Source: an uncultured Fodinibius sp. (GTDB taxonomy: Bacteria > Bacteroidota > Rhodothermia > Balneolales > Balneolaceae). From it: a stretch of DNA of 64,000 nucleotides. The DNA is taken from NCBI GenBank assembly GCA_913056455.1, contig CAJXMJ010000001.1:496001-560000 (forward strand), read 5' to 3'. Under the pieces are notes generated by a model. The model was not told the DNA's origin. It was given only the letters and a program-made list of their open reading frames with translations, and did not search any database. Each line of letters begins with the position of its first letter. The first letter of the stretch is position 1. Positions 45,070 to 49,137 of this stretch are shown one piece after another. The translations under genes were made by a program, and so were the position numbers.

Positions 45070-45288
45070 CGCTGAGAGAGTAATCCCGAAAATTACGTAG
45101 AGGTTTAAATCTTTGAGAAGAGATTGCCGATTGGTGGAAGTAATTATATTGCGATATTGGTTAGCATGTTAGTGCAAAGCATATAAATAAAATGAGTAGA
45201 TTTAGCGTTCCGATAAAATGAGATTTAAATATAACTTGTTTGGTTGCTCACAGAGAAAGTAAACCATCAATATAAATGAATAATTACT

Positions 45289-45807
45289 ATGAGATTATTT
45301 TATGGGGTTCTGATTATATTATTCTTCACCTTAACCGGCACTTCTTATGGCCAAAAGATCAATATAGATGATGTTAGCAGCATTGATGGAATAATTACTG
45401 CTTTATATGATGTGATATCAGGTCCGGCAGGTCAACGCGATTGGGAACGATTTTCTTCACTCTACAAAGAGCAAGCAACGATGGGAGCAATGAGTGAAAC
45501 AGGGGATGGAACGTTGCGATATGTTTCTATGACGCCCGACCAGTATATAGATCGCAATGATGAGTATTTTAAGAAGAATGGGTTTTGGGAAGAGGAAATA
45601 GCTCGGGATGTGTTCCGGTTTGGTGAAATAGCGACGGTTCATACCTCATTTAAAATTAAGTCGGACAAAGATGGGAAAGTGACGCGACGAGGAGTAAATA
45701 CGGTACAGTTAGTGTTTGATCAAGGGCGCTGGTGGATTACAAATGTAACATGGAACAATGAACGTGGTGATAATAAAATTCCTGAGCAATTGTTGGGAGA
45801 TAAATAG
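45289..45807 (+). CDS. secreted NTF2-like (SnoaL-type) protein
   Basis: A 172-residue exported protein (signal peptide to about residue 21, ending TSYGQ). The mature part has the NTF2-like layout: a long first helix (GIITALYDVISGPAGQRDWERFSSLY), the middle MTPDQYIDRNDEYFKKNGF segment, and strands ending GRWWITNVTWNNE. Such folds bind small ligands or form dimers; no catalytic residues can be assigned. It is monocistronic and unlinked to neighbours. Confidence 0.75.
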   Translation: MRLFYGVLIILFFTLTGTSYGQKINIDDVSSIDGIITALYDVISGPAGQRDWERFSSLYKEQATMGAMSETGDGTLRYVSMTPDQYIDRNDEYFKKNGFWEEEIARDVFRFGEIATVHTSFKIKSDKDGKVTRRGVNTVQLVFDQGRWWITNVTWNNERGDNKIPEQLLGDK

Positions 45808-46239
45808 TAAGAAGAAGGAAGAGGCTTGTTAGGGGAGGTAGATATGTATAATATTGTAATATGTTTTAATATTAAATTTTTATAATGTTATATTGGTTCT
45901 CGTTAGGAAATTAGTTTCATCTTTAGGTATACAGCATTTAGGTTAAGGTAGTTTGTAGAAAGGTAAATCTGCAGTGAGATGGAGTTACTGCTATCAGTAA
46001 ATTTAAGTATAAATTAACATGCAGATGAATCCGTGGGGTATTGAAGTATAGCACCTATCAGGTAGATAACATCTTTGGTTTCATAGTCCTTACTATGACT
46101 ACACAGAAGTATTGCATTTCAGAATTTTATCTGATAATAATCACAGCGAATCCAACTAAATATGTCAAAAGCATAAAAGCAGGTCAAAGGTAGCTTGTAC
46201 ACGTAACTATTTTATTCACATAACATCTTAGAAAGGCTT
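45808..46239. other. 430-base AT-rich intergenic region before the B12 sensor operon
   Basis: No gene, tRNA or clear hairpin terminator is visible. Runs such as TATAATATTGTAATATG near 45846 are AT-rich and loosely palindromic. The promoter of the B12-binding/kinase operon must lie here. Confidence 0.5.
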
Positions 46240-47301
46240 ATGCCGGGATCAGACCGCAGGGAAGTACAACAATTAGAAGCTCACAAGGAGGAGTTGGCCG
46301 AGCTTTTCACGTCCATGCATTTTGAACGTTATCCGGAACTGGATGAACAGTATGGAAAAGAGGGAAGAAGGAAATGTTATGAGGATACCATTCAACATCT
46401 CGATTACTTAGAACAGGCTGCTCGTGTTGAGAGTAAGGAACTGTTTAATAACTATTTGGGATGGGCGCGAACTATGCTGCAAGAACGGGAGATGCTCAAA
46501 AGTGATCTTGTTGATAATCTTGCAACGTTACGAAAAGCCATTAAAAGAACATTGCCGGATGATACGGCTTCTTCATTGAACGAATATATTGATGATGGGC
46601 TCTCTTCGTTGCAGAATACTGATACCGAAGAAATTACATACTTACATGAAGGTGATCCTTTATTTGATGAAGCAAATAAGTATTTAGATTTATTACTGTC
46701 GGGAAAGCGTAAGGAGGCCTCACAGTTAATTCAAACACTGGTAGATGAAGGCACCTCGATAAAGGATATTTATGAGCATATTTTTCAAAAGACGCAATAT
46801 GAGGTGGGGATTCTTTGGCAGACGAATAAAATTACGGTCGCTCATGAACATTACTGCACTGCTGCCACCCAGCTTATTATGTCGCAGCTATATCCCAAAA
46901 TATTTGCCATGGGAAAGAGTGATAAACGATTAGTTGCTTGTTCAATAGCCGAGGAGCTTCACGAAATTGGCATTCGTATGGTGACCGACTTTTTTGAAAT
47001 GGAAGGTTGGGATACTCACTACTTAGGCTCCAACATGCCTGATGAACACTTAATACGATCAATCAAAGAAAATGATGCCGACGTATTGGCTATTTCAGTT
47101 ACTCTACCCTTGCATATCGGTAAGGCCAAGAACCTGATTGCAAAATTGCGGGAAGATAGGAAGCTTGAAAATCTAAAAATAATAGTCGGCGGATATCCCT
47201 TTAAAACTGTGCCCGATCTGTGGAAAAAAATTGGAGCTGATGCTTCGGCAGGTTCGGCAGATGAAGCCATTGAAATTGCAAATAAATTGATTGAACATTG
47301 A
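46240..47301 (+). CDS. B12-binding sensor protein with a CarH-type W-x9-EH motif
   Basis: A 353-residue soluble protein. Residues 1-125 are helical without a recognised DNA-binding motif. Residues 140-225 form the four-helix cap that covers cobalamin, with W193, nine residues, then E203-H204 (LWQTNKITVAHEHY): the W-x9-EH pattern of the photosensory CarH/LitR group. Residues 230-350 are the Rossmann B12 domain, with the lower-ligand histidine in ELHEIG (H241) and later VGGYPF. CarH-type proteins bind adenosylcobalamin and respond to light. Here the N-terminal MerR domain is missing and the next gene is a histidine kinase, overlapped by four bases. Light sensing is inferred. Confidence 0.85.
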   Translation: MPGSDRREVQQLEAHKEELAELFTSMHFERYPELDEQYGKEGRRKCYEDTIQHLDYLEQAARVESKELFNNYLGWARTMLQEREMLKSDLVDNLATLRKAIKRTLPDDTASSLNEYIDDGLSSLQNTDTEEITYLHEGDPLFDEANKYLDLLLSGKRKEASQLIQTLVDEGTSIKDIYEHIFQKTQYEVGILWQTNKITVAHEHYCTAATQLIMSQLYPKIFAMGKSDKRLVACSIAEELHEIGIRMVTDFFEMEGWDTHYLGSNMPDEHLIRSIKENDADVLAISVTLPLHIGKAKNLIAKLREDRKLENLKIIVGGYPFKTVPDLWKKIGADASAGSADEAIEIANKLIEH

Positions 47302-48503
47302 GTACACAGCACCAAACGCTTCCAAATGGAATCGCTATCATTGTAAATGATGACGGAATACTCCAGAAGATCATTCATGATTCTTTTGGGGTGTTTTCAC
47401 TCCGGGGAGATGAAACCATGTCTTTTGTAGACTGCCTTGAGAGCGATAGTATTCCCAAAGCTTATCAGTTTATTGAGCGTATTAATACCAACGATGTAGC
47501 CTATGACTGGGAGCTGCACGTTACAGATGGCGAGGAAATCAAATTGTTTAGTTTTTCGGGTATTAGCGTGGATGATAAGAATTTGTTGATAGGGACCGCC
47601 AATCCGGATGATACTGAACAGTTTTTGAATGGATTGATGGAGATGAATAATGAGTCTATTAATAAGCTGCGCACGTTTATGAAAGAACAACAGCAATCTA
47701 CCGGATCAATGAATGACGAGTGGGCAATGTATGACGAGATGAGCGGTCTTAACAACGAGCTGGCGAATATGCAGCGCAAGCTTACAAAAAAGACGGCCGA
47801 ACTTGAACGCATGAACGAACTCAAAAATCAAATGCTGGGTATGGCGGCTCATGATCTTCGCAATCCGCTTACGCTTATCCAGAATTATTCCAGTTTTTTG
47901 ATTGAGGATCACGAAGAGGAGGACATATTTTCGGATGATCAGTTTCAGCTGGTAAAACAGATCAAAGAATCCAGTGAGTATATGGTACAAATTATCGAGG
48001 ATATGCTGGACATTTCGGCTATAGAATCGGGTAGTATAAGTTTGGAAAAAGATGATGAAGATATTTGCGAGCTTGTCGACCGGGTTGTGTCATTGAACCG
48101 ACCGACAGCTGGGAAAAAGGATATCTCTCTAACAACTAAATTGCCGGATAAGGCAATAATTAAAGAGGTTGATGCCCACAAATTTCAGCAGGTATTGGAT
48201 AACTTGATCTCCAACGCCATAAAATATTCTCAGCCTCAAACAGAGGTAGAAGTAGGTATAAAGAAGGAGAGTGACAGTGCCATAACTATTTATGTTAAGG
48301 ATGAGGGACAGGGTATTCCTGAAAATGAGCTTGAAGATCTATTTGTACCCTTTACGAAGATTAGTAGTGAGCCTACCGCCGGGGAAAAAAGTACCGGGCT
48401 GGGGTTGGCGATTGCCCAAAAAATTGTAGAAGCACACGGCGGTGATATTCAGGTTGAAAGTGAAGCAGGGATCGGGTCAACCTTTTATGTCACTATTTCT
48501 TAA
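47298..48503 (+). CDS. PAS-like sensor histidine kinase coupled to the B12 protein
   Basis: A 401-residue cytosolic kinase (no transmembrane helix). An N-terminal PAS-like region (about 1-110) is followed by a coiled coil (about 145-180), the H-box MAAHDLRNPL (His185), the N-box NLISNAIKYS, and G-boxes DEGQGIPE and GLGLAIAQKIV. It starts with TTG at 47298 inside the TGA stop of the B12 gene (TTGA), so translation is coupled and the B12 protein is the probable input. No response regulator gene is adjacent. It ends 18 bases before a terminator at 48522. Confidence 0.9.
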   Translation: MSTQHQTLPNGIAIIVNDDGILQKIIHDSFGVFSLRGDETMSFVDCLESDSIPKAYQFIERINTNDVAYDWELHVTDGEEIKLFSFSGISVDDKNLLIGTANPDDTEQFLNGLMEMNNESINKLRTFMKEQQQSTGSMNDEWAMYDEMSGLNNELANMQRKLTKKTAELERMNELKNQMLGMAAHDLRNPLTLIQNYSSFLIEDHEEEDIFSDDQFQLVKQIKESSEYMVQIIEDMLDISAIESGSISLEKDDEDICELVDRVVSLNRPTAGKKDISLTTKLPDKAIIKEVDAHKFQQVLDNLISNAIKYSQPQTEVEVGIKKESDSAITIYVKDEGQGIPENELEDLFVPFTKISSEPTAGEKSTGLGLAIAQKIVEAHGGDIQVESEAGIGSTFYVTIS

Positions 48504-48567: not shown

Positions 48568-49137
48568 TTATTGATTTTGAGGAGAGGTGGGTTGTTGTTG
48601 CATTTGCCCTCCCATCTTCTTTTGGATCTGTTGCTGGATTTGCATTTGAAGTGCAGAATCTTGCTGAGCAGCACGGCTTATGTCTTGAAAACGTTGCATC
48701 TCCATGCCGGCATCCTCAATAGCTTTCGTCACGCTGTCACGGATTTCAGTTTGCAGCTCTTGAATAGAAGAAGTAGCCGCATCAAATTTCTCCATTTCGC
48801 TGTCACTGAATTGCGTAGAATCACCTTGGCCCATCTGCTTGGATTGTGCAATCTTTTGATAGGTTTGAATATCAAGGCCTTCATCCTGAATGATCCCCAT
48901 CATCTGTTTTTGAGCCTGCATCTGTACTTGCTGGGCATTCATGGCCGCATCAGCGAAGGTAGCAGCCTCCTCATCAGACACATCAACATCCGGGGCTGAT
49001 TGCTGCATCTGTGCCATGGGATTAGACTGTTGCGAATTTTGTTGCTGAGTATTCGTGTCCTCAGAGGAATCACTTTGGCATCCGATAAGTGCGACTGCCA
49101 ATAGAATAGTAGAAAGGTATTTTAAAGTATTAGTCAT
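48568..49137 (-). CDS. DUF4168-like lipoprotein
   Basis: A 189-residue lipoprotein (lipobox ALIGC, cysteine 20), very rich in Gln and Met. Two halves each resemble the DUF4168 unit: 'VSDEEAATFADAAM...GLDIQTYQKIAQ' and 'FSDSEMEKFDAAT...AGMEMQRFQDISR'. The C terminus is QQQIQKKMGGQMQQQ. Function is unknown; the family is secreted and often linked to cell-surface helices. It is monocistronic, with its own terminator at 48522. Confidence 0.75.
   Translation of the reverse strand: MTNTLKYLSTILLAVALIGCQSDSSEDTNTQQQNSQQSNPMAQMQQSAPDVDVSDEEAATFADAAMNAQQVQMQAQKQMMGIIQDEGLDIQTYQKIAQSKQMGQGDSTQFSDSEMEKFDAATSSIQELQTEIRDSVTKAIEDAGMEMQRFQDISRAAQQDSALQMQIQQQIQKKMGGQMQQQPTSPQNQ

Follow-up and report, generated by a model that had tools for sequence, protein, structure and literature searches.

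How would a cobalamin-binding protein with no DNA-binding domain of its own pass on what it senses? The question is raised by two overlapping genes in the 64,000-nucleotide stretch of DNA analysed here (hereafter the window), which derives from an uncultured Fodinibius sp. The initial annotation had read them as a CarH/LitR-type B12 protein coupled to a histidine kinase.

An overlapping sensor-kinase gene pair

The pair comprises the following features:

46240..47301, + strand: photocobilin-like sensor, 353 aa (Pfam, PDB sequence matches, profiles, AF2 model, fold match of the B12 part)
47298..48503, + strand: soluble histidine kinase partner, 401 aa, TTG start (Pfam HisKA 1e-16, HATPase_c 1e-27)
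47298..47301, + strand: TTGA, start/stop overlap of the sensor and kinase genes (sequence)

Both open reading frames and their shared TTGA exist as the initial annotation described them. The 4-nt overlap recurs between the sensor and partner genes of 31 of the 77 relatives measured, and in 62 of these 77 the intergenic spacing is 10 nt or less (overlaps counted); translational coupling of the two genes is conserved. A simple hydropathy scan found no membrane segment in either protein (the highest 19-residue Kyte-Doolittle means were 1.19 and 0.88 for the sensor and kinase proteins, respectively). The identification of the partner as a histidine kinase is borne out by the two Pfam matches and by the catalytic boxes, as the phospho-accepting His and the N, G1 and G2 boxes are all present (H185, N306, D335, G337, G367, G369). 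An Rfam search over the whole window gave no match, and hence, by that test, no cobalamin riboswitch. Directly behind the kinase, on the opposite strand, lies a gene for a DUF4168 protein (window 48568-49137), a placement that the nearest relatives share.

A photosensor-type cobalamin-binding domain

The C-terminal part of the sensor holds three features:

46657..47298, + strand: cobalamin-binding domain (helical cap plus Rossmann part), aa 140-353 (Pfam; fold match to 8j2w)
46816..46851, + strand: W193-x9-E203-H204, adenosyl-pocket signature (sequence; invariant in 79/79)
46954..46971, + strand: E239-L-H241-E-I-G244, lower-ligand motif (sequence; H241 and G244 invariant)

All six residues (W193, E203, H204, E239, H241 and G244) stand at the positions given before, and W193, E203, H204 and H241 are unchanged in the 79 aligned proteins (window protein included). 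The window has 295 stop-to-stop frames of 60 aa or longer; a single one of them contains W-x9-EH, and a single one W-x9-EH followed by ExHxxG. Pfam B12-binding_2 (6e-16) and B12-binding (1e-21) both scored over their cut-offs on the sensor. The photocobilin structures 8j2w, 8j2x and 8j2y ranked top in a PDB sequence search with the B12 part. The AF2 model of the sensor reached a pLDDT of 90.6 and a pTM of 0.85, and in fold comparisons the B12 domain matched 8j2w (VIA-align; Z 26.8, rmsd 1.8, 208 residues aligned), a methylamine corrinoid protein (Z 23.2, rmsd 2.4, 210 aligned) and CarH (Z 20.6-20.7, rmsd 2.4-2.7, 192-202 aligned). The NCBIfam methyl-carrier models gave 67 bits on the window protein versus 30 bits for the CarH model, all of them below cut-off (215 bits or more for the methyl-carrier models).

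Phylogenetic placement, on which the earlier photosensor call had been made to depend, set the sensor apart from the methyltransferase corrinoid proteins, in a clade of its own. In a tree of 73 B12 domains this clade consisted of 31 rows (28 of the 29 photocobilin rows and three relatives from the phylum; support 98/96), the 13 methyl-carrier rows grouped with the window genome's own MetH (100/100), and the 14 MerR-type rows formed one clade (97/95), for which long-branch warnings were raised. The Ilyobacter row fell outside, and two Streptomyces rows joined the methyl carriers at 82/82. The W-EH signature is present in all photocobilin-type rows, in 14/14 MerR-type rows and in 14/14 other rows from the phylum, and is absent from 13/13 methyl-carrier domains.

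The sensor has no Pfam match to a MerR DNA-binding domain, whose absence had been noted, and carries a phycobiliprotein-like N-terminus in its place. Hence, the CarH/LitR-type assignment stands as far as the B12 domain is of the photosensor type, but photocobilins are closer both by sequence and by fold, and the N-terminal bilin-type domain makes them, rather than CarH/LitR, the closest known proteins.

B12 domains with W-EH that stand alone occur repeatedly in the phylum; ten of them form their own clade in the 73-domain tree. At one locus (L055 4589-6842) a protein of 219 aa with the cobalamin-binding domain only is followed by a 149-aa gene and by a kinase without the partner-module motif described below.

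A bilin-type domain at the N-terminus

Whereas the B12 anatomy had been correctly drawn, residues 1-125 had been left unidentified in the initial annotation; here they prove to be phycobiliprotein-like:

46240..46614, + strand: phycobiliprotein-like (photoglobin) domain, aa 1-125 (profile A5 against PDB; Pfam Phycobilisome)
46375..46386, + strand: C46-x-x-D49, position of the CXRD attachment Cys and equivalent of SasPcob Asp270 (alignments)
46462..46464, + strand: W75, equivalent of SasPcob Trp296 (invariant in 79/79)

The assignment is based on sequence profiles, and the PDB fold list is nearly silent on this domain because the B12 domain fills it. A profile of 47 N-terminal domains retrieved allophycocyanin (3.7e-7) and the SasPcob bilin domain (1.1e-6) from the PDB, and the best 60 of 132 PDB matches were phycobiliproteins, photocobilins or smURFP. 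Pfam Phycobilisome was matched at E 0.01 or better by 44 of the 79 aligned proteins (best 1.3e-10); residues 9-119 of the window sensor gave 0.007, below cut-off, and its residues 8-107 align weakly to the photocobilin bilin domain in the PDB sequence search.

The equivalence of D49 and W75 was read off printed alignments after conversion of the published numbering (chain = paper minus 6). D49 is kept in 77/79 aligned proteins, and no column of the domain other than W75 is invariant. According to the accessible text of PMC10979010, Asp270 and Trp296 hold biliverdin in SasPcob (Trp296 touching both biliverdin and the corrin), and AbPcob, with His at the Asp270 position, binds biliverdin poorly. 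The CXRD motif of phycobiliproteins (a name found in the available part of PMC10151467) has its Cys aligned with C46, a position occupied by Cys in 39/79 and by Ser in 26/79 aligned proteins; covalent attachment of a bilin through a phycobiliprotein-type Cys may occur in about half of the photocobilin-like members. The most fitting reading of the sensor is that of a photocobilin whose B12 domain is C-terminal, i.e. a predicted two-chromophore (B12 and bilin) photoreceptor.

A partner module dedicated to the sensor

The N-terminal part of the kinase forms a unit of its own:

47298..47807, + strand: photocobilin-partner module, PAS-like part aa ~1-105 and linker ~110-170 (linkage; AF2; R160 in 78/78)

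This region has no Pfam family match and no credible match to a PDB chain by sequence. The AF2 model of the kinase N-terminus shows a PAS-like order of strands and helices at moderate confidence, and Foldseek aligned the whole chain to LOV kinases with a TM of 0.35-0.36. The linker residues are N117, N118, R125, N152, N153, L155 and R160, of which R160 is invariant in 78/78 partners and N152 is found in 76/78.

In the phylum set of 395 genomes (the window genome is a member of the Balneolota) the two-domain sensor is present in 19, counting one in which the reading frame is split (G184). A profile of the first 168 residues of the kinase recovered 16 of the 395 genomes at <1e-35, with one copy each, and all 16 strong matches lie directly downstream of a photocobilin; two further matches were weak (1e-4 and 5e-4), and three of the 19 two-domain carriers (G387, G072, G183) have the sensor without the module. 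In G085 a linker-only kinase (9e-10) stands beside a B12 domain without globin. A linker-motif pattern run over 22 loci, near stand-alone B12 domains of the phylum, returned only L021/L050 (the same locus) and L057.

Two loci are worth recording for their architecture. At L050 4451-5880 (G085; also L021) the globin-less B12 domain is accompanied by a kinase that lacks the PAS-like domain and starts with the linker, and at L051 7339-8402 (G184) the photocobilin gene is split over two frames (173 + 169 aa), through a sequencing error or in reality.

Beyond the phylum we considered the best 80 of 243 relatives, which span 22 named phyla and include two Lokiarchaeota bins. The search patterns had been derived from 15 aligned proteins, every one of which had the partner, and the 80 are the best of 243, so that the linkage rate holds for this clade only. 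Of the 79 downstream genes at these 80 loci, 77 match the module; in L075 it lies 418 bp further on, in L115 none was found downstream of the sensor, and L136 ends at the contig. The module is carried by 89 of the 149 kinase-like ORFs in the flanks, and every remaining flank match is the same partner gene in a longer reading. Alignment A4 omits L125 and L136, which are short or lie at the end of a contig, and alignment A3 omits L075, L115 and L136; L125 was retained in A3 and in the count of IsdG-like neighbours given below.

The N-terminus stays constant across the 78 partners (window included) while their outputs vary: HATPase_c was detected in 70/78, HisKA in 67/78, a receiver domain in 8/78 and GGDEF in 4/78, and L039-L042 keep the N-terminus in front of a kinase core of another type. 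The design recurs in plasmid-borne relatives, namely in Azospirillum, with a kinase, and in Ilyobacter, where the sensor gene and a GGDEF gene overlap; the Skermanella plasmid relative has no such output neighbour.

A third gene and the supply of bilin

Upstream of the pair the window contains a further trace:

45981..46228, + strand: decayed remnant of an IsdG/HmuQ-like (ABM-family) gene (tblastn, blastn, alignment)

The IsdG-like proteins of relatives matched two frames of the window in tblastn (E 0.002 each), and blastn aligned window 45200-46300 to L060 at 69.6% over 1163 bp. The remnant shows small indels and a 43-bp deletion that spans the conserved-Trp stretch. No intact IsdG-like copy was found in the window genome at E 1e-12; it has one other ABM-containing frame (271 aa, two matches). 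Close relatives have an intact copy immediately in front of the photocobilin gene. Among the best 80 of 243 loci it is the commonest other neighbour of the pair, a protein of ~99 residues being encoded directly upstream in 25/80, from eight phyla. In the phylum set strong matches (<1e-44) occur in 4 of the 395 genomes, each just upstream of a photocobilin, and three others lie near 1e-13.

Pfam ABM was over cut-off in 7/7 IsdG-like proteins tested. Below curated cut-offs they matched HmuQ (best 5e-12), the 'heme oxygenase' PRK13315 (2e-11) and IsdI (5e-8), and in the PDB they matched IsdI (2.7e-10), MhuD (1.6e-9) and also TT1380 and HmoB. The available part of PMC5557675 gives Asn-Trp-His as the catalytic triad of the IsdG family. 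IsdG-type products are reported to differ from biliverdin. In the IsdG-like proteins the triad's Trp and His are invariant and its Asn is replaced by Ser in 20/20, which leaves the triad of IsdG-family haem oxygenases incomplete; the generic ABM proteins L193 and L194 retain the Asn. The gene is absent from 14 Chloroflexota, 4 Thermodesulfobacteriota, 3 Bacillota and 2 archaeal loci, a spread that fits an oxygen-using enzyme but descent as well.

An association between Cys46 and the IsdG-like neighbour was considered and rejected: the raw counts (19/24 vs 17/49, Fisher p 0.0004) did not survive correction on the tree (of 7 independent pairs, 2.5 spoke for the link and 0.5 spoke against it; median p 0.63). 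Compared with L060, dN/dS is 0.36 for the globin domain and 0.08 for the cobalamin-binding domain, values that rest on low dS. Since the IsdG-like gene is decayed and the globin value is the higher one, the bilin site of the window sensor may be losing its ligand.

Canonical haem oxygenase (PF01126) has no match in the window genome and occurs in 43 of the 395 phylum genomes, but in only one of the 19 two-domain carriers, as a partial match. The cross-phylum search, which took in 49 of the 80 genomes (L075 was left out), found it in 4/49; at L108 a haem oxygenase gene (PF01126) adjoins the sensor gene, divergently upstream. Anaerobilin was rejected as the bilin source, because the HutW model matched in 50/50 carrier genomes and exceeded its cut-off in 0/50; the matches were taken as HemN-like proteins. 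With PF01126 in 4/49 and anaerobilin synthase in 0/50, a bilin source is missing for most carriers. A bacteriophytochrome was detected in 2/50 carrier genomes. One of these two, G411, encodes two phytochromes without PF01126, no haem oxygenase being recognised by its first residues in the flanks fetched, and thus an absent PF01126 match is no proof of an absent bilin. The carriers L093, L095, L098, L101 and L110 include lineages that we take to be strict anaerobes (e.g., Heliobacterium, Lokiarchaeota); an enzyme that uses oxygen is an unlikely source of whatever bilin they may have.

At L044 the sensor is preceded by a histidine-kinase-like ATPase, a flavin amine-oxidase-family gene (likely protoporphyrinogen oxidase), ferrochelatase, HemN, HemE, HemD and HemC; downstream of the pair come a KaiB-domain gene and then a hybrid kinase (L044 6346-16695; the gene order at L051 is similar). 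The layout possibly links light, tetrapyrrole supply and a clock-like protein.

Proposed mechanism and alternative readings

The earlier proposal that B12 sensing feeds a phosphorelay keeps its core (a photosensor-type domain, no DNA-binding domain and a lasting kinase partnership), but had overlooked the bilin-type domain and the upstream remnant. Starting from the observed anatomy, conservation and linkage of the sensor-kinase pair, we consider it probable that a photocobilin carrying AdoCbl and bilin light-switches a separate kinase by way of the PAS-like/linker module, with its ligands, light response and signalling steps predicted. AdoCbl photolysis, a change at the dimer interface and altered partner contact are proposed because of photocobilin biochemistry. 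In the dark, the conserved Trp/Glu/His would lie over the bound AdoCbl, and a bilin carried by the N-terminal globin would widen the absorbed range; light would break the Co-C bond, the adenosyl group would leave and the dimer interface of the B12 domain would then rearrange. The sensor would contact the separately encoded kinase through the latter's dedicated module, and the rearrangement would alter the geometry of the linker helix running into HisKA and so switch autophosphorylation. We reason that the linker may be the docking site, given that G085 combines a sensor reduced to the cobalamin-binding domain with a linker-only kinase and that R160 is invariant. Translational coupling would keep the amounts of sensor and kinase in step, and in many relatives the upstream IsdG/HmuQ-like protein might supply or handle a linear tetrapyrrole. 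In lineages that possibly use oxygen, this Ser-Trp-His protein may make, cleave or load the bilin, replacing canonical haem oxygenase. Only tentatively do we extend this to a light cassette shared by at least 22 phyla, made up of a photocobilin (with covalent bilin in roughly half), an adaptor with interchangeable outputs and the Ser-Trp-His IsdG-like protein as bilin handler.

The same genes could serve a purpose other than light reception. As a sensor of cobalamin status (or of B12/redox state) the protein would set kinase activity through corrin occupancy or the axial ligand, its globin steadying the corrin edge; this would suit carriers that presumably are strict anaerobes or come from sediment and similar sources, and the absence of a known bilin enzyme from most of them. 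The shielding of the corrin edge by the globin domain, described in the accessible text of PMC10979010, points the same way. Against such a role stand the adenosyl pocket and the bilin contact: the W/E/H triad is invariant in 79/79, shared by 14/14 MerR-type domains and by 0/13 methyl carriers, and D49 is kept in 77/79, so that we hold the cobalamin-status reading to be rather unlikely.

Less likely still, and in our view improbable, is a sensor of haem breakdown, in which the N-terminal domain would report a bilin from the IsdG-like protein and B12 would be a structural or secondary cofactor. The IsdG/HmuQ-like gene directly upstream in 25/80 loci (best 80 of 243) and the haem-synthesis cluster adjoining the L044 pair speak for it; yet most loci do not have the gene and the window has only its remnant, Ser takes the place of the catalytic Asn, and it is the B12 pocket residues that are fully invariant. 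That the protein is a corrinoid methyl carrier with an incidental kinase neighbour is very improbable and was already disfavoured: although the NCBIfam methyl-carrier models score best, they do so far below cut-off, the tree sets corrinoid methyl carriers apart, no methyltransferase was seen among the immediate neighbours scanned, and the pairing with the kinase module is kept across phyla.

Comparison with known systems

Read as a photocobilin, the sensor is not of a new kind, because photocobilins are known (2024), forms with a C-terminal B12 domain included; the accessible text of PMC10979010 describes groups in which the B12 domain comes first and others in which it comes last. With SasPcob (8J2W/8J2X) and AbDPcob (8J2Y) it shares the AdoCbl domain with W/EH and lower-ligand His and the phycobiliprotein-like domain with equivalents of Asp270 and Trp296. 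It differs in its reversed domain order and in the Cys at the bilin position, said in that text to be missing from photocobilins. Photocobilins act, according to the same source, on a diguanylate cyclase, both fused and in trans, a parallel to the control of a separate kinase proposed here. A dedicated PAS-like partner and an IsdG-like neighbour set the present pair apart. The BBAG-2 bilin-binding globins, as presented in the available part of PMC10151467, are biliverdin-specific, lack CXRD and are encoded near a B12 protein in some bacteria; they share the broad globin lineage with the sensor domain but are separate globin proteins with a pre-2 PcyA, and that part mentions no partner kinase. 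CarH/LitR (TtCarH 5C8A-F, LitR 3WHP) have the same adenosyl-pocket signature and lower-ligand His, but the window sensor is without a MerR domain, bears the extra bilin-type domain and falls in a separate clade.

Schneider et al. (2022) reportedly predicted a photoglobin-B12 bundle as a light sensor in prokaryotic signalling. Their work may anticipate the linkage; in the literature from 2015 on we found none that joins B12-binding, phycobilisome, histidine kinase and globin. The main text of PMC10979010 mentions no histidine kinase, IsdG, heme oxygenase, operon, PAS domain or two-component system, and the available portion of PMC11796333 mentions no histidine kinase. The partner module, the IsdG-like third gene and the scarcity of haem oxygenase in carriers are thus undescribed in the literature examined, the kinase linkage being possibly anticipated.

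Descriptions of photocobilins date from 2024, and little is known of the partners with which they work in nature. How a stand-alone photocobilin signals can be tested directly on a fixed sensor-adaptor pair whose outputs are swappable, and such a pair offers kinases and cyclases a natural green/red switch. The IsdG/HmuQ-family monooxygenases (IsdI, MhuD, HmoB, LFO1) share with the neighbour gene the ABM fold family and the Trp and His of the triad, and differ from it in that the neighbour has Ser for the catalytic Asn and is linked to a photocobilin. Literature joining IsdG, photoreceptor and bilin includes, in the portions available, algal bilin synthesis, and this neighbour raises the question of whether a photoreceptor may draw its bilin from an IsdG-type enzyme, the known products of which are unlike biliverdin.
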